From Ceratothoa steindachneri (Eukaryota; Arthropoda; Malacostraca; Isopoda; Cymothoidae), in the NCBI GenBank assembly GCA_963969495.1, contig OZ018322.1:157944848-158008847 (forward strand): a DNA stretch of 64,000 nucleotides, read 5' to 3'. The notes under the pieces were generated by a model that was given only the letters and a program-made list of their open reading frames with translations, was not told the origin of the DNA and did no database searches. How positions within the stretch are numbered: position 1 is the stretch's first letter; the number at the start of each line of letters is the position of its first letter. Below are positions 33,628 through 64,000 of the stretch, one piece after another. Made by a program: the position numbers and the translations under genes.

Positions 33628-34611
33628 TTACGACTTTTTCCCAACATTCAACTAGTTTTTCCACCACTATATAATAAAAATCTATGGATTTTGACTCGAA
33701 TAATTCGTCTACCAGGTTCTTAATTCCACATCAGTACTGAACGAAATGCCGCGCAAATTGTTGGAGAGCGATCAAAACTGATGGAAATCCGATGGATCCA
33801 AGTCTGGCGAATAAGGAGGATGCGGAAGGATTTTCCAATTTAGAGTTTTGATGGCGTCTTTTGTCATATTGGCAATGTGAGGATGAGTATTGTCGTGTTG
33901 CAGAAGGACTCCATAACGTCGATGAGGTCACTTTTCACGAATAGCTTCGGCGAGGCGATACATTTGTTGAACGTAGAATTCTGCACTGACAATCTCGTTG
34001 TTCGCATAAAGAATGATGCCTTGACAATCCCACCACACGCACAGCATCCTCTTTCGTGGATGAAGTCCTTGCTTTAATCGCGGAAGTGTTTTTTTATTCA
34101 GGCTAAGCCATTGTTTTTGATGGTTCGTGTTGACATAAACACACCACTTTTCGTCGCCAGTGATGATGCGGTGAAGAAATCTGTCCTTATATTCACGATT
34201 AGTCTTGTGACGAGCAAGCAAACCTGCGGCAATCGTGGAACGTTGAAGTTTGTTGCTTTCGCTCACGAAAGTGAGCGAAAGATAGAGTTGATTCACTACA
34301 GTTTTCTGATCACAGGCCAATTTTACAACCAATTCTCTAGTCGATTGATGAGGATTTTCATGAAGAATCGATCTTCGATCTGCATCCAACTTAATGGGGA
34401 GACTAGAACGTTCTTCGTCATTAAGATTGAAATGACCGTTTTTGAAACGTGAAAACCACCATTGAGCTGTCCTTTCTGATAAAGCATTTTCTTCGTACAC
34501 AGCACAAATATCACGACGAGCTTTAGCTGCGTTTGCATTGTTCCCGTCTCGATCGAAAATGAATAACAACCAGTGTCGAAAATGCGCCTTTCTTTCAACT
34601 TGACATTGCAT
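33628..34611 (-). pseudogene. mariner transposase, nearly intact length with nonsense mutations
   Basis: From MQCQVERKAHFRHWLLF at 34,611 to a TAA at 33,628 it reads in a single frame of about 327 codons; an earlier Met lies at 34,629. It contains the HTH region (TAQWWFSRFKNGHFNLNDEE), GDEKWCVYVNT with the first catalytic Asp, LLQHDNTHPHIA with the second and SPDLDPSDFHQF with the third, 34 residues apart as in D,D34D elements. A TGA at 33,928-33,930 replaces a Trp-like position before RRYGVLLQHDN. A TGA follows HQF and further stops occur near the C-terminus. No frameshift is needed, so the decay is by point mutation. Confidence 0.85.
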
Positions 34612-34635
34612 TTTGAGGGTACAGAACAAAAATTA

Positions 34636-48640: not shown

Positions 48641-49095
48641 AATAAAAGAGAAATATAAATTTGCATTGATGCCAAGGAGGCTCAATTTCGTCTACAATTA
48701 TATTGTAAGTTGGAAATTCTGTTTAAATAAATATAAATTTCTTAGATACAGTAATTTAAATCAATATATTGTAATATAATTTAAAATTACAGTAAAAATT
48801 AACTATATCATTAAAAATAAATTAATGATTGATTTATAATCTATATTCAAAATAATTTATATTCTTATAGTTTGTTACTTCATCCTATTTAACCTCTGGC
48901 TCTGGAAATAGTCTAAGAATGACCATTTTTATAGTAGGCCAATCCCGCTACATTAAAGCTGAGGCATTGGGTTGTATGTATAAAACAAGGTCTGCTGTCC
49001 TTAGGTCGCGTGCTCTCACATATTCTCATTCATCACCTTACGATGTTCAAAACTTTCAATAAATTGCACACTAACCTGGGGAGGACATTGGCACT
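48641..49095. other. AT-rich spacer
   Basis: Nothing recognised. An AATAAATTGC sequence occurs at about 49,054, the same string that marks the junctions of the LINE array further right. Confidence 0.3.
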
Positions 49096-50570: not shown

Positions 50571-50944
50571 TTAATTAAGTATGTCTGAAAAGCCATATTT
50601 GGTTTTTATTTTATTAGAACCCTACAATTGTTGACCCCGGAGACACATGGTTCGACCTTTAAAGGACTCAATACAGCGCCTTCAAAAGCGTTTGGTCTTA
50701 CCATCTCCTTACTACTTAACGGACTAAATGCGGCGCGTTACTAGCACGTTTGTCTGATGAGAACCTAGCGGACTAAATACGGCCTGCTAGCACCACGTTC
50801 GTTCTCTAACTTCGGCTGCATTCATAGTGCCTCGCGGCTAAATAGGACGAGCCTCAATAATGCTTGTTTGCTCTCCTTCAACTACACTTGGTGACTTCCA
50901 GTCCAGTTCCGACAGTAAGGCTGAGGCAACTACCTAAGTCACCC

Positions 50945-51640
50945 ACGATGGCATCCATCTACCTGCCTTCTGATCATCCAACGCTGGACTGTGGTTCATG
51001 CAGGCAAAATCACAATTTAATAAGGTGAAAATCTCATCCAAGATGACAAAGTTTGACTACATTGTCGTCAGAGACGTCAAGGTTTCTTCATCCTCCAGTT
51101 CGTCACCTAAGAGCACTTGAAAACCGCTTTCGTCTCAAGAACGGCCGCATTGGAAGCCGAGCCCCTAAGGCCACTCGTATCACAAGAAGAACTCGGAGAT
51201 CTGAAGCTTCTCACATTTTCTCAGTTACATGCAACAGATTCTTGGTGCGCAAGAAGCTGCCCTCGAAAAGCCTCTCTATGGCCAGCTTTTTCTAGAGAGG
51301 CTCCCTTACTCCACGTGAAAAATCTTTGACGGGATGTATTCCACAACAAGCGTGGAAAAACTAGCCAACACGGCTGATTGAATCATCCATGCCTTCGACC
51401 CTTAAGTGATTAGACTCTCTAGCCATTTGGATGAACAAATCAAACATTTGCAAGTACAAATTGAGGAGCCAGCGCACCTCGTCAAAAGTAGCCTGAAAAG
51501 GCCTTGGTCTCGTTCCTGGTCGAAATGACGTGCGAAGAAACGATCAAGCTCTTTTCTCTGTTATTACCATGCAGATTTTGGTGAAAAGACTTGGAAATGC
51601 ATTTCCACCTATCAACGCAAATCCAAAAACAAACTAGTCT
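50945..51640 (+). pseudogene. gypsy gag pseudogene
   Basis: Pieces follow the usual arthropod gypsy gag: FMQAKSQFNKVKISSKMTKF, DYIVV, LKTAFVSRTAALEAEPLRPL (shifted frame), VSQEELGDLKLL, and, in a third frame, CYYHADFGEKTWKC in place of the terminal Cys/His motif. At least four frame changes. Confidence 0.7.
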
Positions 51641-53215
51641 GCCAGTCGCTTCTAGTGCCAAACGTCCGTCTCTCGGGCTCCAAGCTGCTCTGTAGCATAG
51701 ACCCTTCAACGAAACTCACTTTTCTCATCGATACAGGTGCTGAGCTCAGCTACTTCCCTAGGCCGAATAGAAGAACTCGCCTATTTAGTACCTTTTTCAG
51801 CAAATTGAACTAATGTCCCCGTTTACAGAACACAACTGAATACACTTTCTATGGTTCTCATTGAAATTGAAAATGGGTCTTTCTCGTTACGCCGTCCGCA
51901 GCTCAATCTTAGGCGCTGATTTTCTCGGGTCCTTCAAGCTTTATTTTGATCTTAGAAAGACATCTTTTGTTGATTAGGCCCCCTCACTTCATTCTTATTC
52001 TTGAATGAGCTCAGATGAGTCTACCGCCATCTCTGCAATTATACTGTGGACTTTGTTCAAGAATTTCTTGGAAAAATTCCCTGCACTCCTTACTCCGGTG
52101 GACCAGCCAACTGAGGTTAACATAGCGTGACTAATCAAATTCCTATAGCCGGACAACCTGTGTACGCCAAAATACTACGACTTCCGCTGCCCGGTTAAAA
52201 AAAGCGGAAGGGGGGATTCCAGCAAATGGTGGATCTTGGAGACCATCAGACCTTTCAAGGGCAATTGGTCCTCAGAGCATCACGTGCTACCCAAGAAAAC
52301 ATGAGATTGGCAATCGTACAGTGAATATCGCACCCTCAATGCCATTACCATTCGTGACAGGCATACCTTTGCTCAAATAAATGATTTTACCTCTAATTTT
52401 CATAGGTGCACAATCTTATCAAAGATTGACCTGGTGAACGCTTTTCACCAGATTCCCCTGGGGCCTTCCGACTTTTGCAATACTGCCAAAATTACCCGAT
52501 TTCAGCTAGTAGAGTGGCTGTACATTATTTTCGGCCTCTGCAATGCTGCCCATCCTTCGAACGCTTCATTAACGAAGTCACTCATGGTCAATCTTTACAG
52601 CAGGTTTATCAAGGACTTACAGCTATTCTAATGCCCATCAACGACCACTGCGACCAGAGAAGAAAGGCATCAAAACTTACATTAACTAAACTGATTTTGC
52701 AAATACCGCCTTCGAAAAAGCAAAAATAGCCCTGAAGTAAGCAACCCGTTTTTATTATCTTGTTCCTGATCCTAAAAAATGTATAATGAGAGATATGTAC
52801 ATCAGAATTGGCTGTCTTCGCAGTTTTGCAGCCGAGTTGACAATTGGATCCATATTGCTTTCTTCTTGAAGAAACTTCAACCAATTGAGACTCTGTACAG
52901 TGCGTTGGGCAGAGAAGTTCACGCCTTTATATCAACATCCCCCATTTTTATCACTTCGTCGAAGAGAGGGGAGGGAATTTCACATACCAAGGATCATAAG
53001 CCTTTGATATTTCTATTCTGTTCAAATTCCACTAAGCCTTCTCCTCGTGTTCTTCGGAACATGGAACTCATACTTAAGATCACTTCTGACATAAGCCATA
53101 TCCACGGCACTAACAAAGTAGCAGTTGATTCCATTTCCAGAGTGGTCGTTGCTTCTGTTGAGCTTCATCACCTCTATCTGAAGCTTCCTCAGAAAGAAGG
53201 CAGTTACACATAACT
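51640..53215 (+). pseudogene. gypsy protease, RT and RNase H pseudogene
   Basis: The protease has SIDPSTKLTFLIDTGAELSY with an intact DTG at 51,730-51,738. RT has GQPVYAKILRLPLP, FQQMVDLGDHQTFQ, ILSKIDLVNAFHQIPLGP (first RT Asp) and FERFINEVTHG. Then about 100 residues including YxDD are missing and LYSRFIKDL follows at once. RNase H or its pseudo-domain has IGSILLSS-type, LYSALGREVHAF and DHKPLIFLFCSN blocks, and ends ISHIHGTNKVAVDSISR (52,779-53,213 is open). Stops and shifts lie elsewhere. Confidence 0.8.
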
Positions 53216-53299
53216 GAGTTCACTCATTAAGAACCCGTCTTAGCATGCCCTTCCCCTCAAATGTTTAGTTATCCTAGGTTAGGTGAAACACCTAACTCG

Positions 53300-53515
53300 A
53301 GATAAGTGTGATGTTTCGACCGACAGTGTTAAAAATTATGAACCTCCCGCTCTATGTTGGAAAGTTTTGGCAAAATTTACGGCCTCTGCCGTCCAGTCAT
53401 ATGCTTAAATCCCCGAATGTTTGCTTTGTCTTACATTTAGCGACAAAGAATAAGATCATGCGTCAGTGGGCTAGCTGTTATCCTCAGTATCAGAGGTGCA
53501 AGGTATCGCGATAGG
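53300..53515 (+). pseudogene. gypsy integrase zinc-finger remnant
   Basis: The last part reads KNKIMRQWASCYPQYQRCKV, matching the CxxCQRxKV end of the HHCC finger with the first Cys kept and the second Cys altered. The integrase core is absent. Confidence 0.5.
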
Positions 53516-53827
53516 TCTATTTGCCATCTGAAAAATATTTAACTCTGATGCTCATCACTTGATATTAAACGCTCGCTAGTAATAATTACTGACTGGGAGG
53601 GGGTATTGCCATTGTATGCATAAATATAAGTCGTATTAATGTAAATTTTTAGAGTTTACCTTTTACAAATATATTTAGTTACCCCTCAAACCTTGCTAGT
53701 TTATTCGATAAATCAACCTAATCCCTATTTATTGTATTTAGAATTCGCTTGATATTTTAAAATCTTATATTTGCATCTTATTTTATCATTAATTATTTTC
53801 ATATTTTAAATAAATAAAATAACCTAT

Positions 53828-53960
53828 GTAATATTAATAAGTCTTTTTTGTTTGTTTTTTTGTTGTTTGTTTGTTTTGTTTTTATTTTATTATTATTTGT
53901 ATTATGATTATGTATAAATGTACGCTATTGCACAATAAACCTATACAATCAAAATTTAAT
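53828..53960 (+). mobile_element. Extremely 5'-truncated LINE copy (3' UTR only)
   Basis: About 130 bases, almost identical to the 3' UTR at 55,230-55,361: T-rich run, TATTATTTGTATTATGATTA, TGTATAAATGTAC, CTATTGCAC, AATAAA at 53,934-53,939 and an A-rich tail. It is followed directly by the 5' end of the next LINE fragment. Confidence 0.85.
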
Positions 53961-55361
53961 AAATCAGCCTAGCAATCAACTCCCTCAACCCGGCAGGAAA
54001 CTGGCTGTGGCGCGACCCCGACACCCCCCACCCCGCCTACGTTCCACCACCACCATGGGACCCCCCCGCCGCACACTTCACCGCCACACAGTTGCCCGAC
54101 AGCAAAGCGAACTGCCTCACCGAGGAGCTGCGCCAGCACGCCCTCATGGCCATGTCTGAGGTCACGGAGCCAGGCAGCGCAGTGTACTTCACCGACGGCT
54201 CCGTCGACCCCGACAGCGGGAGGCCCGGCGCCGCCTTCGTCACGAGCGGCTTGACGCAAGCGTGGAGGACATCAGACCACAGCTCCACCCTCCAGACGGA
54301 GCTGGTAGCAATCCTGCACGCCCTCCAGCACGTTTTGCTCCGCCGGGAGGCCACTGTGGTGATACACACTGACTCTCGGTCGGGACTACAGGCGCTGCAG
54401 CACGCCCACGCCCACGCCTACACCCGGGACAACATCCACCTCACCACCACAATCCTGTGCACCCTGCAGGACCTGGCAGCTCAGGGCAGGCGTGTCCGGC
54501 TCCACTGGATTCCCAGCCACGTTGGCGTGCGCGGCAACGATGCTGCCGACGAGGCTGCCAAGCGAGCCGCCCACGGCCCCATCATCACCTGGACCGTGCG
54601 CCCCAGCCTGCAGCAGCTCAAGGTGCAGGTTAAACGCAGGGCCGCCCACAACGCCCACTAGCAGCACCGAGAATGGGAAGCATTCAAGAGGCAAGCGGCG
54701 TGGTATGCTGCAGCCACAGCCTATCGCCCACTGAACCCATCCTTCCAGCAGCCCAGAGCGAACGGCGTGCTGCTACAGCGTGTGAGGCTGGGCTACTCCA
54801 CGCGGGAAGAGCTGCACGCCGACTTTGTGGCAGGGAGGTGCGAACACTGCGGCGGCCGCTCCCGGCGCCCACTGGTGCACTACCTCCTCTCCTGCCCAGC
54901 CACCGCCCGCCTCAGGCCAGAGCGAGCTCCAGCCCCTGCCCCTGTAAGAGGCGCCCTTCTGAGGGCGCGAGAGGCAAGAGCCGCCCAGGTGGTCCGCCAC
55001 ACCCCAACAAACGAGCTGCTGGAGGTGCTGAGAACAGCACCCCCTCCGCGCTGATCGCCGCTCGCACCCAGCCGGGCGACAGGTGATGAAGACCGACGCC
55101 ACCCACTTGCAGCAGTCAAGAAACGCGTGGGACGCTCCACCACGTCTTACTGCACGCCAACACTGACGGGCTGCCCGCTTTGTGTAATGTGTGCATTTAT
55201 ACATGTATTTATATTATTGTATCATATTATTACTGTATTTGTCTTTTTTGTCGGTTTTTTTTTGTTATTTGTTTGTTTTGTTTTTATTTTATTATTATTT
55301 GTATTATGATTATGTATAAATGTACTCTATTGCACAATAAACCTATAAAATCAAAAAAATA
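53961..55361 (+). mobile_element. 5'-truncated LINE copy with RNase H end, youngest-looking element
   Basis: GC-rich insertion containing the 3' end of ORF2 and a 3' UTR with AATAAA at 55,336-55,341 and an A-rich tail. The 3' UTR differs from the adjacent copy at only a few positions over about 110 bases, so both inserted recently compared with the rest of the window. Confidence 0.85.
53963..55054 (+). pseudogene. LINE ORF2 C-terminus with complete RNase HI domain
   Basis: Open in one frame from 53,963 (after a TAA in the flank) to TGA at 55,052, with a single TAG at 54,659-54,661. RNase HI degrades the RNA strand of RNA-DNA hybrids. Its four acidic positions are all present: AVYFTDGSVD, TLQTELVAIL, VIHTDSRSGL and GNDAADEAAKRA, with HVGV before the last. 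The C-terminus has CEHCGGRSRRPLVHYLLSC, a CX2CX9HX4C finger-like motif common at LINE ends. The RT part is missing by 5' truncation. There is no start codon of its own, so translation is doubtful. TAG is probably a mutated Gln codon. Confidence 0.85.
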
Positions 55362-55371
55362 AATAAATTGC
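55362..55371 (+). repeat. LINE array junction repeat 1 (AATAAATTGC)
   Basis: Lies between the A-rich tail of the RNase H LINE and the start of the next LINE. The same ten bases follow that LINE's own tail at 57,060. Confidence 0.75.
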
Positions 55372-57059
55372 GAAGATCCTCAACGGAAGACTGGTGTCTC
55401 ACCTGGAAGAAAACTCCCTCTACAACCCTTGCCAATTCGGGTTTAGAAAGAAGCGAAGTACGGAAATGGCAATTAATGTCATAACGGAAAAGCTTTCCCA
55501 AGCCAAACGGGACAGGAGTTATGTGGACATCGTTTGTCGGGATGTGTCAAAGGCGTTTGCTAAGGTGTGGCAGCGGGGCATGCATTATAAGATCTTAAGG
55601 CTGGGTCTAAGTGAAAACTTAGAAAGAACTCTCTGTGACTATGTCATGGAGAGAGCGGCGTATGTCAGTCTAGGCTGCACGGACGGACCAAAGTTTCCGC
55701 TCACTGCGGGCCTCCCGCAGGGGGGGTGTCTGTCCCCCACCCTTCACTCGATATACACCGCGGACGTCCCAGACCCTGTGTACCCCAATTCCCTCAATAT
55801 TTAATACGCCGATGATTTCAGCCAGATAATCGTATCTCCATGGAGGCATGCACCGTGGCAAGCTCCAATGACAGCGATGGAAATCGCGAACCTTAACAAC
55901 TACGAGGCTCAGTGGAAAATAAGAACAAACCAAGAGAAATTCAAGGTGGTCCCCATCGGACGCACCTTAAGGGCAGACGTGCGTGTGGGGGATACGCGAT
56001 ACCCCTACACCAACGAATGCAATGTACTCGGTATGGAAAACACCTCTACCGGATACAAAAAGCACGTCGAAGAAAGAATTTCTCGAGCCTCGTCCGCTGT
56101 CAGAACTCTATACAGCTTCAGAAATCTACGTGAAAGCAACAAGAAGAAGATCTACAATTCCCTTGTAAGATCTATGTTGCTTTACCCCGCCTCTACCCTC
56201 TCATGTGGCTCATAAACACAAAAGAGGCGTCGTCAAGTAGTGCAAAATAAATGCATTTACCTAATAACAGGTACACGCAGGCATGAAAGAAGACCTGCAC
56301 AGAGAGGCGGGGATAATTTCCATTAACAAAGTCATAGAAGAACGGACCCGGAAAATGCAGGATCTGGTTAATCGTGAACTGAGTGATGAAATCACCCAGA
56401 TGATTAACCAGAACAGAAGAGCTGAATGTCGCCCCAGATTCCCCAGCTCCGCCAACCGAGTGGCTGGCGGAGACGAAGTGCCGTTCTATGCGTAAAATGA
56501 GAAAAAAGAAACCTGTGAAAATAATATCAATCACAAGAACAATGAAAAAACTCGAAAACTTACTACGACAAGTTACCGATATAGACAAACCTACCAAGTA
56601 ATGAAAAACTCACCGATTACGACGAGAACTTCGAAAGAAGTAATCTACCAAAGAAGAAAGAAGAAACAATAATACTACTAAAATACACACACAATAAAAC
56701 AATACAATAAGCACGCACTTAAATATATTTAAAAACATATACAAAACAGGCAATGCACAACATAAACCATAAAAATACTAAAGTTGCTAAGACAAATGGC
56801 TTGAACGCCATAATAATTATAATTTTATAATTTTATAACTTTATAATTGTTACCAAAACCAAAAACAACAAAAATGAATTCACACAACCAAGAAAATAAA
56901 TTAAAGTGATAAGTCTGATCACCAGACCCTAGGCATCTCTTTGCACCTCTACCACACTTCTTTCTCTCTTCTCCACTTGTCTATTTTCTCTGTCCCCCCA
57001 CACACCCTATCGTCTCCCCTCACATGCACCCCCACTTAAACAAAGTCAAAGTCAAAGTC
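55372..57059 (+). mobile_element. 5'-truncated jockey-like LINE (array member 1)
   Basis: Begins inside RT and runs through a long A/C-rich 3' UTR to three AAAGTC repeats at 57,042-57,059. It is flanked by AATAAATTGC on both sides (55,362 and 57,060), which I read as its target-site duplication. Confidence 0.75.
55376..56500 (+). pseudogene. jockey-like RT and C-terminal region
   Basis: FGFRKKRSTEMAINVITEKL, then YVDIVCRDVSKAFAKVW (first RT Asp), AGLPQGGCLSPTLHSIYTAD and YADDFSQIIV. A TAA at 55,802-55,804 sits exactly before the YADD box, probably a mutated Gln codon, in an otherwise continuous frame (55,394-56,213). The thumb and C-terminus have GRTLRADVRVGDTRYPY, KKHVEERISRASSAVRTLYS and RSMLLYPAS. 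After 56,213 it continues with shifts to about 56,490. Confidence 0.85.
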
Positions 57060-57071
57060 AATAAATTGCTC
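57060..57071 (+). repeat. LINE array junction repeat 2 (AATAAATTGCTC)
   Basis: Between the AAAGTC tail of array member 1 and the 5' end of member 2. Identical over 12 bases to 61,790-61,801. Confidence 0.8.
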
Positions 57072-57194
57072 AATTGCTCGAAGGCAGAAGAATTCACTTG
57101 AAAAACTACGCTGAAACTACATCTCTTACTCGTTAAAGGAGGAAAAGGTTGAGGCGAGGCATCCTCAAAACGCCCGGATTTGCCTTGCTATCTC

Positions 57195-57846
57195 CACGGG
57201 GACTATACGGAAGACATTTTTAACCCGCTCCTAGGCAACTTAATGTCGACCTAACTCCCTCCCCCCTATCTCGACGGAGTTGCGAAGCCGAAATGATCTG
57301 AACTGCCATTCATCTAATCTCGCTCCAACTATGAAGGTCCACTTTGATAGACATAATTGGGGACGTAAAGGAAAGCAGGTTTGAGCATTAGCCCACTGTG
57401 GAACTCTACGGGAGAGACCGCCCAGTTACGCGGTGATGCTGAAAGCTTTGGGGAAGAGTTCGATCTATTCTCTAAGGGCCCACTTACGGCCAAGACCACA
57501 GGGAAATATGCAACCGTCCCCACGGGGACTATACGGAAGACATTTTTAACCCGCTCCTAGGCGACTTAATGTCGCCCTAACTCCCCCCCCCCCTCCCTCG
57601 ACGGAGTTGAGAAGCCGAAATGAACTGAACTGCTATTAATCTACTCTCGCTCCAACTATGTTGGTCCACTTTGATAGCCATAATTGGGGACGTAATGTTA
57701 AGCAGGTTTGAGCATTAGCCCACTGTGTAACTCTACGGAAGAGACCACCCGGTTACGAGGCGATGCTGAAAGCTTTGAGAAGAGTTCGATCTAATCTCTA
57801 AGGGCACACTTCCGGCCAAGACCAGAGGAGAACATGCAACCGTCCC
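57195..57846 (+). repeat. Two tandem 326-bp units in a LINE 5' region
   Basis: Unit 1 is 57,195-57,520 and unit 2 is 57,521-57,846. Each starts CACGGGGACTATACGGAAGA, passes a C-rich run and CGACGGAGTTG, then GTCCACTTTGATAG, CATAATTGGGGACGTAA, AGCCCACTGTG and AAGAGTTCGATCTA, and ends GCAACCGTCCC. Single-base differences are scattered, so the units have diverged a little. A related but single and more diverged unit is present at about 62,250-62,400 in the next LINE. Confidence 0.9.
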
Positions 57847-57849
57847 TGT

Positions 57850-58440
57850 GTAAGTTGGAAACAGCATCGATATCCAAACCCCAGATGGGGCAACATCCCT
57901 GATGGTGGTATTTGGTTCCCTGACAACACCCCTTCCGGGGATGTACTGCAACTGCAGATGGTTCCAAACCAACAACCCAACAGGTAAGACAACACCAACA
58001 AAGTGAACAATAAAAGAGAAAAGAAAAAAGCAGTTGAGTCAAAAACTCCTGCGCATAAACAGAGCCAAGTAACCACAACTGAGAAAATTAACACCGACAC
58101 CAACAGTTCCTCGGAATCCTCAGATTCCTCGGACACCGAAGCACAACAAACCTAGAAAACCAAGGGAAAGAAAAAGAAAAACAAAAAATTGCGGGCGGAT
58201 AACATAAATCTGAAAATCTATGCCTGCGATCAATTTCCCGTTCCCGAGGAAATGGAAGCCAGGGATATTTTCCATGGAATAAATTCGAAAGTTTACAAAG
58301 GAAGTACGACTACGAAGTCGACCATGAAACAGTAGAAGAAGCTCTGCTCACACAAAATGTGACCCTACATCACAGCACCTGCGAGCAGATCTCAAACGCT
58401 GAGTTCAGAAAAAAAGAGAATTAGGAGGAAGAAGAACTTC
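57850..58440 (+). pseudogene. Decayed LINE ORF1
   Basis: Short Lys/Glu/Asn-rich pieces (KTKGKKKKNKKLRAD-like near 58,150-58,200, then ISRSRGNGSQGYFPWNKF). It sits between the 5' units and the endonuclease. No zinc knuckles found; many stops. Assigned by position and basic composition. Confidence 0.4.
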
Positions 58441-58465
58441 AACCAAAAACACTAGATAAACAAGA

Positions 58466-59210
58466 ATGGAGAGAGTAAGCAACAGAATGAGGATTCTGAC
58501 ACTCAACGTCAATGGATGGGAGGGGAAGGCTACGGCATATGGAAACATATTCCAAGTGCTTGACCTCGACATCATTCCTATAACGGAGCAAGTTCTTGAT
58601 ACCACAGCTTGTCGAATTAAAATACTGGGCTACAAAGTAGTCATAAAAAATCATTCCCAGGAAAGGTTCGATGATGCTGCAATAGCTGTTAAGGGTAACA
58701 TCTCGTTCAAACAACTACCAGAACTCGATGAATCCTTTGTAGCGATCGAGCTACACACACTGGTAGGAGACCTCGTGAAAGCTGCAACCTATCAGCCCCC
58801 TCGTAAGCCTATCTCCCGTTAAATAACATCTACACACTGTTCGGGCACCGCAAGATGGTAATCTTAGGGGGAGACCTTAAATTCAGATGTCGTGCGGCTG
58901 GCTATGGTAGTACCAACGATAGAGGCCGAAACTTGGAACTGATTATGTGAAGAAAAACATCCAGAGAATAGGGCAGCATTTTCTGACCTATATCACTTCC
59001 AGATCAGCAACTACACCTGACATAATCTTAACAAGTGAAGGCTTCCCATTTAACTACCATAGTGAGCCAGGCCTAACAGTCCCACATGATCACATAGCGA
59101 TATTAACAACAAGTATCTCTTACACCGATCCAGCTCCCAGTCCCTGTCTGAAAAAACTACGCCCTGGCCAACTGGGATCGTTACAACAGACGAATCAGTC
59201 AATATGCGCC
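58466..59210 (+). pseudogene. LINE apurinic endonuclease
   Basis: The frame at 58,466-58,820 reads MRILTLNVNGWEGKATAYGN (Asn), LDLDIIPITEQ (Glu) and VAIELHTLVGDLVKAATYQP with a PPR continuation. A shifted piece has MVILGGDLKFRCRAAGYG (the GGDLN motif with Lys for Asn) near 58,857-58,910. The next frame has SATTPDIILTSEGFPFNYHS and TVPHDHIAIL, where the SDH motif reads HDH. Damaged at two active-site motifs. Confidence 0.8.
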
Positions 59211-61220
59211 AGCTGACCTAAGCGCGGCATCATTAGAGGAGATAGACGGGTAACTGGAGAGGATGACAACTTCCATGCTAGAAGCGGACTGCAAGAACAT
59301 ACCCAAAACTGGGTATAAAACACCTCTTCAGCCCAGATGGACAAAGGAGATGAGAGATATCGCTCGCGCTCACAGGGAAGTGTACGAAGAAATAAGAGAG
59401 GTAAGTCCCAGCCCGAAAGAAGCTCGCTCCTTCGACACCTAAGCACAGAGCTTAGAGAGGCTATCAACCTCCAACAGAAGGAAATTTAGAACAACCTGAT
59501 AGCCAAAGTTAAAGGCGAACTTAACCCGGCTAAGTTCTGGTGTCAAGTCAAGAACTTAAAGGGACTTACAGCAAGACCAAAAGCTCGAATAAAAGAGAGC
59601 GGAGACTATATAGAAGACCCTGCGGGTCTGGAAGACAGGTTCAGAAACTTCTGGAAAAACGTTTTCAGGATCAACCCTGAAAAAAACGACGAGTTCGATC
59701 AGGAATTTGAAGGCCAACTGATCGAAGAAATGAATCAGGTAATGCACCGCACGCACCCACAACATCGAGTCAACGAAGGCAGGAAGATAGCAGACCATGG
59801 CCCTCCCATAACAGCAGTGGAGGTCATGGCCACTGTAAGAGCCTTCCAACAAAGGGCCCTAGGCTGGATGGGCATGACCAGAAACAACTTGGTTAATGCC
59901 CCACAGCAGATCATTCAGTGAATTGCAAACATCTATAACGCTTCCCTGAATACAGGTTACTTCCCGGAAGGTTTTAAGATTGCTAAAGTAATTTTCATAC
60001 CCAAGGGAGGTAAACCCCCGGATCAACTGGTAAATTACAGGCCAATCGCCCTGCTGGAAATCGTTGCGAAAGTCTACGTAAAGCTCCTAGCTGACAGGCT
60101 TCAAGATCAATTAGCCGACCTAGGAGCTCACAACCCTCAGCAACGCGGGTTCCGCAAGGGACGAGGAACGGAAACAGCCCTCGCCCTCCTAGCGGAAAAT
60201 TCGCTTGCAGTACAGCTGAGAGAAGGTACGTAGACCTGGTGCTGCGGGATGTAAAGAAGGCCTTCGATAAAGTATAGCTGAGAGGGCTACAATTCAAGAT
60301 CCTCAACCTCCAGCGTAACCCACTCCTGGAAAGGGTCCTTTGTAATTATGTCTCGGATAGAAGAGCTCAAATCGTGATCGAGGGCTACAAGAGACCCGAA
60401 TTCGAACTCCTGACGGGAGTTCCACAAGGCAGCTGTCTCAGTCCTTTGTTGTACCTAGTGTACACAATTGACCTACCTGCTCCAGTGAGGTACGATTTGA
60501 TATATCTGCACTACGCAGATGACATCACTCAAATCGTCCCGAGTCCATTCAGAAACTCTGGAAGTCAGGCGAGGGCGACAGCTTCCAAAATTGACAACAT
60601 CAATCGTTATGGTAAAAAGTGGAAAATTAAGACTAACCGCCAAATGTTCACCATAGTTCCAATGAACCGCCGGAAAGTTCACGACGTCATCGTCAACAAG
60701 GAGCTCTATCCGTACTCTAACGAGGGAAAAGTCCTGGGCTTACAACTCTACAAATCTGGTTGTAAGGCTCATGTAAATACCAGTCTCCATAACCAAAAGA
60801 GACCTGAGGAAACTTTCCCGTTTTTGAAGCCTCAGCGTGCCAAACAAGAAAAAACCGTGCATGGCCTTGGTGCGCTTAGACCTATTGTACCCGGCTGTGA
60901 TCACGCAGATGGCAAGCTGTAAATTTCTCAAAATGATGCAGATGGTGAAGAATAAAGCCACTCTGCTGATAACTGGCACGCAAAGGATCGACCGTATTCG
61001 GCAATCGGTTCTACATCAAAAAATCGGACTAAAGTCGATCAATATGGAGATCCAAAGGCTAGGGAGAAAGACCTGGGACAAAATCGATCAAGAGATAGTC
61101 CTGACTATAAAATTCAACTTGAATGTACGTGGAAACAGAAGGCCCGCAATTGGTAGAACGGCTCTGTTCCCAAGCAGTAGAACCTGCGCAAGAGAAGACG
61201 TATTTCCAATATATACTTAG
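59211..61220 (+). pseudogene. LINE linker and reverse transcriptase
   Basis: The linker has MTTSMLEADCKNIPKTGYKT. RT begins near 59,960: KVIFIPKGGKPPDQLVNYRP, IALLEIVAKVYVKLLADRLQ, QRGFRKGRGTETALALLAE, then (shifted, with a TAG) VLRDVKKAFDKV. It continues with LLTGVPQGSCLSPLLYLVYT and HYADDITQIV, an intact YADD at 60,512-60,523. The C-terminus in two frames has ITGTQRIDRIRQSVLHQKIG and ends CAREDVFPIYT with TAG. About three frameshifts in total, so this RT is among the better preserved in the window. Confidence 0.85.
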
Positions 61221-61302
61221 TAGTACACAAAATAAAATGACTTTAACCTTATTGTACCCGACTCATAACAAAGCAATAAACATAAGATAAAAATTATTCC
61301 TT

Positions 61303-61480
61303 AAAAAAGTGCGGCGAAGTGCCTAAATTACAAATTAAAACTTACTAAATTTTAAATAAAAAAGAGGCAAAGTGCCCATATTAAAAATTAAAACTTTAAA
61401 ATAAAAAAGAGGTAAAGTACCCAAATTTAAATAATATAATTCAAATCAACAAAAAGAGGCAAAGTGCCCAAAATGAAAAT
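61303..61480 (+). repeat. 3' UTR minisatellite, about four units of 46-51 bases
   Basis: Each unit has an A-rich start, AGAGGCAAAGTGCCC (GCGGCGAAGTGCC in the first), and a TTAAAA-rich remainder. Unit cores lie at about 61,313, 61,364, 61,410 and 61,457. It follows the RT stop closely, so it belongs to the LINE 3' UTR. Confidence 0.8.
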
Positions 61481-61773
61481 AATAAATGTAAAGTTTAATA
61501 TAATTAAAATAGAGATATTCAGCATAACAAGAAAACTTTGAAAGGCTCGAATACTACAATGGCGGAAAAAATGGAAATTAGTAAATAGAAAAAATATATA
61601 TAACAATGGAGGAAACTGGCTGTTAACGACAGTGAGCACCACTACTGACGGAGGAACATTTTATTATAAAATAGAAAAAATTAGAAGTATGCTAGGGATA
61701 CCCTAACACCAGGGCAAACTAGAAAACATTTTCCCACCTGTATAAACCAACCACACAATTCATCACTTTCAAA

Positions 61774-61789
61774 AATTAATTAATTAATT
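61774..61789 (+). repeat. (AATT)n tail of array member 2
   Basis: Four or so AATT units directly before AATAAATTGCTC. It replaces the poly(A) tail usual in other LINEs; member 1 ends in AAAGTC repeats at the same position. Confidence 0.75.
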
Positions 61790-61801
61790 AATAAATTGCT
61801 C
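61790..61801 (+). repeat. LINE array junction repeat 3 (AATAAATTGCTC)
   Basis: Twelve bases identical to 57,060-57,071, at the boundary between array members 2 and 3. Confidence 0.8.
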
Positions 61802-62559
61802 GATACGATGAACTCCTGGCATACTCACTCCTAGCAATTATCTCTGAATTCGATACAGAAGGAAAAATTTGGCAAATTTTCCAAAGACTCCTCCGAGAAT
61901 ATAAGGCGCTCTTATGTTCGGATATTGAGCACTCACATTCGCACTCGAAAGACAACTTAAGCTCCCTTCGCTTTTCAATGCCTGATCTTTTGAAGAAGAA
62001 AGAATATCAGAGAATTATAAGGGCATTTTGCACCTCGATCTTTACAAAAGAAACCTTCCTCTCTAATGGCACTTTTTCCCCTACGTGGAACTTAAAAAAG
62101 AGATTTAATACCAGGTGGTCATAATTAATTCTATGACTACCCAAACTAATCACCACCTTCGCTCTCGCCTTCTAAGGCGTAGCCGTGTGTATTTCCATTC
62201 ATAACTTAGTTCGAACTATACCCGTCGCGAGACAATGAATAATTCGAGGCCGTTGAGAGAGTAGGTTTGTGGAGTAGCCCACTGTGGAACCTTCGTCATA
62301 GGCACCCTGGACAACAGGGCGATCCTGCAGCCATTAGGAAAGAGTTCTCTCTATTCCTGATGGACCGGATGTGATCATAGAGGGACATAAAACCGTTTCT
62401 ATGTGAGCTGGAAGCAGCCTCAATACCCAAACCCCAGAAGAGGCGGCAATCTGGGCAATGGTAATTGATTCAATCACCACCCATCACGAAGTCCGCCATG
62501 AGTCATCCTTCTGGATGGCGTCTCCGGGTCCATCATCTCATTCATCCATCATCTTCATC

Positions 62560-63080
62560 CATGGAGATATACCGACTACGCTAAGGATTAAGGGGACGGG
62601 GAAATCATTCTCAGTTCCCATTCCAAAACTTTAACCTACATTTATCCCTGTAAAATCAATAGGTACAAAGAAGAAAAAAGAAAAAAAACACAAAGAAGAG
62701 CCGGAGGCATTAACGAGCTAAAATGGACGACCGTTAAGGAGCGAAGAGGGTCCCCCTCCGCATCCTTCCTCGCCAGGAGAAACTACCTCGCAAATTAGCA
62801 CTAACGATTATCTACGCTGATATTGGGGTCACACTTTTTAGACTAAAAGACCAGCAAAACGGCTCTGTTGCGCTATGCGACACAGACAAGGATCTAGATC
62901 TCCTGAGCGAAAACGCAGCAAAAAAATGGGAAAAGATCGGAGTCGCACCTTGGACCCTTCAGGACGTACAAACAAAAAGATCTGTGATTTGCACACGCCT
63001 CAACCCTTAGATTGGTGAGCACACTGGAAAAAAAATCAAGGAAGAACTCGAAAAACAACAAAATATCAGCGCATGATTAA
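62560..63080 (+). pseudogene. Decayed LINE ORF1 of array member 3
   Basis: Lys-rich start (GTKKKKEKKHKEEPEALTS near 62,660-62,715), then Arg/Ser-rich pieces with several frame changes. Nothing beyond basic composition and position supports it. Confidence 0.35.
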
Positions 63081-63099
63081 ATTTTTTGTTTAACGTAAA

Positions 63100-63712
63100 C
63101 GGATGGAGAAATTAGAAGTTAAAGTGTTCGAATATAATACGAAAAGGAGACCCAGACTTTATAGTACTGACTGAAGACGGAATCAATACAGAAACAGAAA
63201 ATTTAAAATCCCTAACTAGAGAATTATCTCCAAGAATCATACACAAAACAGATTTGTCGGAGTAACAGATATTTACTTCACCGAAGTAAAAATAACGATG
63301 ATCACAGGGGACATAATAATGGCTGGCGTATACCAACCCCCTAGGCACCCAGATCTGTTAATCCCCAACTTTATTAAGCTCTTCCGTCGACCAGCCTAAA
63401 CATTGCGATCTCAACGCAAGATGTAAGGAAACTGGCTACATTTCACAGTCCAGCGGCACTGAAAGAACCATGCAACTCTTAGTGAGCAGACATCTCGTTA
63501 ATTGGGAAAGGCCAGCCTTCCCAATGTTTCTCACAGACAGATCCTCAACTACCCCAGACATAGTCCTAATGAATTCACTTTTCAGCCTAAACTATCACAC
63601 CGAAATCGGACCCGCTACCCCATCTGATCATCTTAGTATGCATATAAACATCTCAGCCTCACCTATCCAGATCAAAATACCTCGAAAGAAAGTTGTAGGA
63701 AAAACGGATTGA
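63100..63712 (+). pseudogene. LINE apurinic endonuclease of array member 3
   Basis: ITGDIIMAGVYQPPRHPDLL near 63,305-63,360, then GTERTMQLLVSRHLVNWERP and SSTTPDIVLMNSLFSLNYHT. ATPSDHLSMHINIS follows, with the catalytic SDH intact. The N-terminal motifs are in other frames or lost. The C-terminal 80 codons are open, with a TGA at 63,710. Confidence 0.75.
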
Positions 63713-64000
63713 AACAAGTAAAAAGAACATCGGAACGCTCTTAAGGTTGGCTCGCTAAATACCCAAGAAGCTGAGGAGATTGAGACCTATCTACAACAAA
63801 TTATCCTTAAGAATGTAGAAGCGAGCAACTTTTACACCCGACAACAGAATATCAAACTATACCATCACCCAGGTGGAACGTGGAAATAAAGGAAAATGAA
63901 AGAATGCCACAACTTTATAAAATAAATAATAAAATTAGGAAACACACAGGCAGATATCAAAGATTAAGAGAAGCCTGGAGACAAATAAACATACTAATAC
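63713..64000 (+). pseudogene. LINE linker start, cut by window edge
   Basis: Continues the member 3 reading after a stop: KVGSLNTQEAEEIETYLQQI and ASNFYTRQQNIKL, typical of the helical linker after the endonuclease. Ends at the window edge. Confidence 0.5.

Follow-up and report, generated by a model that had tools for sequence, protein, structure and literature searches.

Head-to-tail LINE arrays in Ceratothoa steindachneri: repeated junction strings and a possible preference for transcription start sites

The LINE array and its junction strings

The window, by which we mean the whole 64,000-nucleotide stretch of Ceratothoa steindachneri DNA analysed here (C6:157944848-158008847), contains a head-to-tail array of long interspersed nuclear elements (LINEs) whose junctions carry a repeated string. 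The genome searched comprises 3.93 Gb in 529 contigs. A sequence-only reading of the window had described a same-orientation array without spacers, and this proved real: five members, m1-m5, follow one another (Table 1), m5 directly abuts m4, and the array extends past the right end of the window as m5 and then a further member, m6. Two LINE lineages share the spot, as that reading had suspected, namely an RNase H type (m1 and m2) and reverse transcriptase (RT) LINEs (m3-m5), which that reading labelled jockey-like; m3 and m4 are related by sequence comparison, and Pfam matches above the cut-off in the window were limited to RT (m3, m4) and RNase H (m2). The RNase H of m2 shows 60-72% identity to its ten best aligned hits, the named ones of which come from crabs and other crustaceans; a protein search with m3 gave no match, and scans of viral_contigs with m2 and m4 gave no relatives.

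The conserved start of the m5 family, GACTGCGTAGAACTCC, corresponds to window position 61802 onward. In a search for m5-family 5' ends (40 scored among 636 candidates, the window included as one), the other 39 copies scored align only from window position 61806 or later. Of 19 other copies that were read, 13 have GACTGCGTA immediately ahead of GAACTCC or a variant of it, and three more differ by one base. Since the family start corresponds to 61802 onward, AATAAATTGCTC, which precedes it, lies outside the element. With this family start, some 300 bp of host DNA between m4 and m5, which would put the m5 start at 62108 or beyond, is rejected, and TTGCTC, a candidate for the native 5' start of both m4 and m5, is ruled out for m5 by the comparison of family 5' ends. 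An 8-bp sequence, AATTGCTC, is doubled at 57072 and may reflect an aborted insertion. The 5' untranslated region (UTR) of m4 holds two 327-bp tandem units, 90% alike (window 57194-57846), to which the single 5' UTR of m5 is related. Outside the window, m5 ends near L031:2426 in the tail CCCAATCCCAATAAATAATAG; m6, which follows directly, is interrupted by about 1 kb of other DNA (the gap between its two m5 matches) and ends near L031:8612; its 3' end is 78% identical to another window copy, at 49.7-50.6 kb.

All junction strings listed by the sequence-only reading were found: AATAAATTGC at 55362, 57060 and 61790, AATAAATTGCTC without mismatch only at 57060 and 61790, and AATAAAT at 53958. Outside the array, AATAAATTGC occurs once more in the window, at 49058. 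The expected counts per window are about 0.5 for AATAAATTGC and 0.03-0.05 for AATAAATTGCTC. Between junction 30-mers, the longest common word is 12 bp for J3/J4, 10 bp for J2/J3, and 7 bp for both J1/J2 and J0/J1. Random AT-rich 30-mer pairs share a word of at least 12 bp with a frequency of 0.0007 (nearly all from self-overlapping sequence windows, since at least 16 bp is also reached in 0.0007), of at least 10 bp with 0.002, and of at least 7 bp with 0.068. Because random pairs rarely match over such lengths, the 12-bp duplication of m4 and the 10-bp duplication of m3 are solid, which bears out the suggestion that the strings act as target-site duplications (TSDs).

Read from right to left, AATAAATTGCTC before m5 forms the 12-bp TSD of m4, and the duplication measures 10 bp in m3 and 7 bp in m2; for m1, the proposed shared word is TTAATAA, and the junction strings nest as prefixes. 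The claim that m1 and m2 are each flanked by the string on both sides holds for m2 as regards AATAAAT only and fails for m1, whose left flank reads TTAATAA. The junction string is best read as nested TSDs of serial insertions at one spot, and its shortening leftward is as expected if every insertion entered the left copy, as R1 arrays are said to grow. The idea of a self-made target stands, each insertion re-creating it, and that of landing at the tail of the previous copy has to be modified: the bare strings permit either side, and the leftward shortening and an array on C7, described below, fit the 5' side of the older copy. TAATAGAA may be an 8-bp TSD of m6.

As candidates for the origin of the string, the 3' ends of the elements themselves were rejected, the 3' UTRs of m3 and m4 being unlike and the tails of m6 and of the copy at 49.7-50.6 kb lacking AATAAATTGC; against this rejection, AATAAAT is also present at the m5 tail, and AATAAATTG lies near the probable end of another LINE (8193). 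At the latter place, on the minus strand, AATAAATTGAATG stands at the probable 3' end of a decayed LINE (about 12.1-8.2 kb); a search near the 5' side of that LINE, allowing 2 mismatches, gave no further copy of it. The sequence upstream of the fourth AATAAATTGC, at 49058, weakly resembles the 3' end of m4 (1/100 shuffles as good). An RNA gene as target of the window array was likewise rejected: the window has no Rfam match at gathering score, and so is not 28S ribosomal DNA (rDNA), and no transfer RNA (tRNA) gene.

Table 1. Array members, junctions and flanking signals in the window
Feature	Position	Strand	Remarks
TATA-like ATAAATA	53810..53816	+	first base 31 bp upstream of m1; flank AT-rich, weak on its own
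m1 left flank, TTAATAA	53834..53840	+	proposed 7-bp duplication with 53956-53962; match alone not significant
m1, copy from the RNase H LINE family, consisting of 3' UTR only	53841..53955	+	94% identity to 55241-55356
Junction J1, TTAATAAAT	53956..53964	+	between m1 and m2
m2, 5'-truncated LINE with RNase H (PF00075)	53965..55361	+	Pfam match
Junction J2, AATAAATTGC	55362..55371	+	left duplication of m3
m3, 5'-truncated LINE, reverse transcriptase PF00078, tail (AAAGTC)n	55372..57059	+	Pfam match; tail by reading
Junction J3, AATAAATTGCTC	57060..57071	+	right copy for m3 and left copy for m4
m4, LINE related to m3, decayed open reading frame 2 (ORF2), tail (ATTA)n	57072..61789	+	5' start either 57072 or 57080
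Junction J4, AATAAATTGCTC	61790..61801	+	right duplication of m4
m5, related LINE	61802..64000, on to about L031:2426	+	5' end at about 61802; m6 directly after

Stacking across the genome

The sequence-only reading had offered a site-selective endonuclease for AATAAATTGC(TC) as a source of the repeated string. The identity of the window junctions and a mild genome-wide excess of the 12-mer (606+577 = 1183 occurrences vs 305+352 = 657 for the reversed word) agree with such an enzyme. However, the 12-mer is common genome-wide, and among its first 30 genomic occurrences, all on C1, which served as control places, a related same-strand LINE lies within 1.5 kb upstream at only one (1200 bp away) and an opposite-strand LINE at two; on the other side, the counts are 0/30 and 2/30. 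Because LINEs adjoin so few of its places, AATAAATTGC(TC) is not a genome-wide target; other arrays bear other strings, and independent copies of the clade are not flanked by AATAAATTGC, as those of a site-specific LINE would be. We give this explanation hardly any credence.

The m5-family start GACTGCGTAGAACTCC occurs 55 times in the genome, and the reversed word not at all. Upstream of the first 30 m5-family 5' ends, in contrast to the control places, a related same-strand ORF2 ends at a distance of 223-812 bp in 13 cases, and an opposite-strand LINE is found in two. Head-to-tail stacking is a habit of this LINE clade (13/30 vs 1/30). These counts leave out RNase H queries; with them, L070 joins, and there an RNase H LINE lies further upstream, so that both lineages meet at that place too. 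Three further cases, L057, L070 and L081, come from the upstream 3' UTR, which is like that of L082, itself within the 13.

A young family of the clade forms an array on C17, in which two 5.3-kb copies, A and B, 99.3% identical, stand head to tail and are followed by a 75% relative (942 bp compared); in all three members, CTTTGCCAAT stands directly before GACTGC. On C7, TTTCCGAATGAC precedes three copies, after which comes TTTCCGAAT, joined to the GACTGC of a different leader. The copy behind, GACTGCTTGC, begins with GAC, and these three bases are part of the duplication TTTCCGAATGAC; a TSD reaching 3 bp into the older copy fits landing on its 5' side. Arrays could also arise from template jumping of the reverse transcriptase or from unequal crossing-over of one unit, and the A and B units, nearly identical and alike in their junction, could represent a tandem duplication. 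That origin appears very unlikely, since the arrays in the window and on C7 mix different families with target DNA repeated between members, and on C7 the flanking sequence on both sides comes from other leaders or tails.

Three separate array fronts (L141, L142 and L161) come after the same tail-like CATCTTTTACTAAATAATAATAATAAT, and a further family may stack upstream. The 5' ends of L056, L060 and L069 share an upstream flank ending in CCGCGAGCCGTACCTTTTCTCCCCCTAAAAAAAA, with 82-88% identity over 285-295 bp, which may be a promoter or the end of an element.

Possible insertion at transcription start sites

The young family has an intact 944-aa ORF2 with an APE-type endonuclease (PF03372/PF14529) and RT (PF00078). 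Its census comprises 53 exact 3' ends, for which 51 right flanks were read in addition to two in L083/L084, and 57 exact 5' ends, by which 39 copies could be paired. A TSD of at least 8 bp ending at the LINE start was found in 30 of the 39 copies, against 8 of 1482 mismatched pairs; 28 of these TSDs measure 9-14 bp and two measure 21 bp, tail letters included, and L171 is ambiguous (TA run). The remaining copies have either a TSD plus extra bases between (five) or no TSD (four). The tails are concentrated on C17 (34 of 53, on 121 of 3928 Mb). By eye, L117/L124 and L104/L110 have the same right-flank sequence within each pair and represent the same repeat position or duplicates.

In one young copy, the TSD GAAAGTTATC spans the start of a U2 small nuclear RNA (snRNA) gene from -7 to +3 (Rfam U2, 137.7 bits from the first base). 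U2 was the sole Rfam match in the 40 of the 51 right-flank loci searched, and no fixed distance to a gene of RNA polymerase III (Pol III) was seen there. In another young copy, the TSD TTCTTTTCATTC stands before a 5' UTR leading to ATG TCT GGA CGT GGC AAA GGA, which we take to be histone H2A and whose frame is soon broken by a stop. The promoter sequence at this histone-like site reads GGAATAAATATCCCC. This promoter-like flank recurs in five m5-family copies, where it stops at the site or no more than 4 bases from it, with scores of 40-69 (next 13, shuffled maximum 17).

LINE starts are among the young family's sites as well: GACTGC lies within 32 bp after the tail in 8 of the 53 copies, in four places, and the LINE behind it was verified for L091, L092, A and B; by eye, the tail of L097 leads into an apparent diverged LINE leader. 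The TSD lies at -7 to +3 at U2 and at -9 to +3 at a LINE start, in both cases about the extent of the initial transcription bubble.

Forward TATA-like words starting 31-40 bp upstream of the LINE start occur in 7 of 38 young and 10 of 40 m5-family flanks, while every other 10-bp bin holds 0-1 and the control sites give 0/30. The young set consists of 41 flanks minus three with long TA runs, and the m5 set of 30 pattern loci plus 10 of 20 earlier ones, six repeats of the same place and four others, the window included, having been dropped. With a wider motif set, the observed 8/38 and 11/40 were reached in 0 of 300 rotations each. LINE orientation follows the TATA box, by eye also in L166/L167, a repeat that carries two boxes facing opposite ways. 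In a minority of flanks, the TATA-like peak thus amounts to a promoter element at a fixed distance and in a fixed orientation. A weak endonuclease liking for AT-rich DNA plus chance, with the duplicated site cut again, would be consistent with TTTATT/AA on the bottom strand of the window site and with the many young insertions that look unselective; it does not fit the fixed TATA distance or the same-strand adjacency of 13/30 vs 1/30, and we regard it as quite improbable.

Another explanation is self-targeting without promoters. Here the endonuclease would recognise the 5' end of an older LINE (GACTGC...) or the adjacent duplication; head-to-tail arrays and the GACTGC start common to diverged leaders speak for it, and a precedent is R1 of Drosophila rDNA, new copies of which are held to enter the TSD at the older copy's 5' end (PMC2718515). 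Such self-targeting leaves U2, the histone-like promoter and the TATA peak at non-LINE sites unexplained, and in our judgement it is rather unlikely.

Among the other features of the window, reading of the frames points to a Gypsy-type remnant resembling a long terminal repeat (LTR) element at 50600-53600, just upstream of the array, and, on the minus strand, an open frame at 33928-34632 resembles, by reading, a mariner-type transposase.

Proposed explanation and comparison with known systems

Overall, we favour, with some reserve, the explanation that this LINE clade often inserts at start sites of RNA polymerase II (Pol II), stacking copies at the 5' side, and that the repeated string is host DNA duplicated again and again. 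The DNA beside the 5' end of m5 would have been duplicated anew with each LINE insertion, by target-primed reverse transcription; each new LINE would have entered at the 5' side of the older copy, and the leftmost member would be the newest. The TSD would span about -12 to +3 of the Pol II start, with the LINE pointing in the promoter direction. The upstream TATA box would stay and keep marking the same spot for later copies, and the 5' end of the LINE would itself be a start site and hence a target, the two together leading to head-to-tail stacks that grow on the 5' side. Entry at a start site would also place each copy under a ready promoter. From these patterns we infer the order of insertion, the recognition of a start complex and the conformity of the window array to a start-site rule. 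In its more specific form, the explanation holds that LINEs enter the opened start-site DNA of Pol II promoters, that a promoter with one copy gathers more, the newest in front, and that RNase H LINEs use the same spot; this form is tentative, and we put it slightly short of an even chance.

It should be noted that a number of observations weigh against this explanation. In the window array, the start-site evidence is thin: the one sign of a promoter is ATAAATA, at the predicted distance of 31 bp from m1 but surrounded by AT-rich DNA; the 7-bp duplications of m2 and m1, although in register, are weak when taken singly; and the flanks of m5, AATAAATTGCTC on the left and AATAAATAATAG on the right, have only AATAAAT in common, giving no clear TSD. 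As regards stacking, copies of the clade are very numerous (one RT gave 233358 first-look candidates, of which 111 were scored), so that some adjacency arises by chance, and homogeneous stretches could be local duplications. One further copy, I, has a doubled 5' end, yet GACTGC is absent from its 3' flank, for which reason its doubled 22 bp was rejected as a TSD reaching into a LINE.

Most young-family insertions are also left unexplained. Only the eight tails mentioned run into GACTGC; for L090, L093, L119 and L120, the LINE behind is presumed from the start motif, and the insertion in L090 lies 13-21 bp upstream of GACTGC, off the start. Several other young copies lie in LINE reading frames by eye (e.g. 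L107, L115, L118 and L126) or in unassigned DNA. Targeting is at best partial. As for the TATA peak, reverse-complement words occur in the 31-40 bin in two young and 4 of 40 m5-family flanks, TATA-like words are absent from that bin at the front of the A/B array, and L055 and L081, counted in the peak, have LINE ends upstream. Several cases are related: L139/L140 share one left flank, L034 and L043 are 26 kb apart, L166/L167 are one repeat, and five m5-family cases are one promoter type, so that independent cases number about six (young) and eight (m5-family) at most. Transcription starts other than that of U2 are presumed ones.

If the explanation is true, steering by Pol II start sites would account for the continued transcription of such LINEs, the clade would be a natural recorder of promoter use, and a non-LTR counterpart to Pol III-steered elements would be at hand. 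The usual view is that most LINEs are either scattered or confined to a single repeated gene, and a literature search, most subscription journals being outside its reach, gave no report of a LINE steered by Pol II start sites.

Keno and Utopia are LINEs specific to U2 snRNA genes, whereas here U2 accounts for 1 of 53 sites, with insertion at -7 to +3; for Utopia, the targeting of these genes is described in PMC4640811. HeT-A, TART and TAHRE form head-to-tail jockey-type arrays that grow at the 5' side, at chromosome ends. They are named in PMC10088271; the present arrays, in contrast, lie inside long contigs and have TSDs, and neither is at a chromosome end (158 of 217 Mb along C6 for the window, 65 of 121 Mb along C17 for the young array).

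The nearest known behaviour is that of TRE5-A of Dictyostelium. It follows Pol III complexes near tRNA genes, and PMC5391098 describes several likenesses: it is a non-LTR element, inserts orientation-specifically at a fixed distance from a transcription unit, forms tandems at one site and has extra non-templated bases at the 5' junction. TRE5-A lies near Pol III genes, whereas here the starts are those of U2 and of TATA-type, probably Pol II, units, and the LINE sits on the start itself. R1 arrays (PMC2718515) consist, like those here, of members separated by copies of the TSD; R1 is tied to 28S rDNA, with a typical 14-bp spacer, whereas in the present clade the targets vary, the spacer is array-specific and families are mixed.

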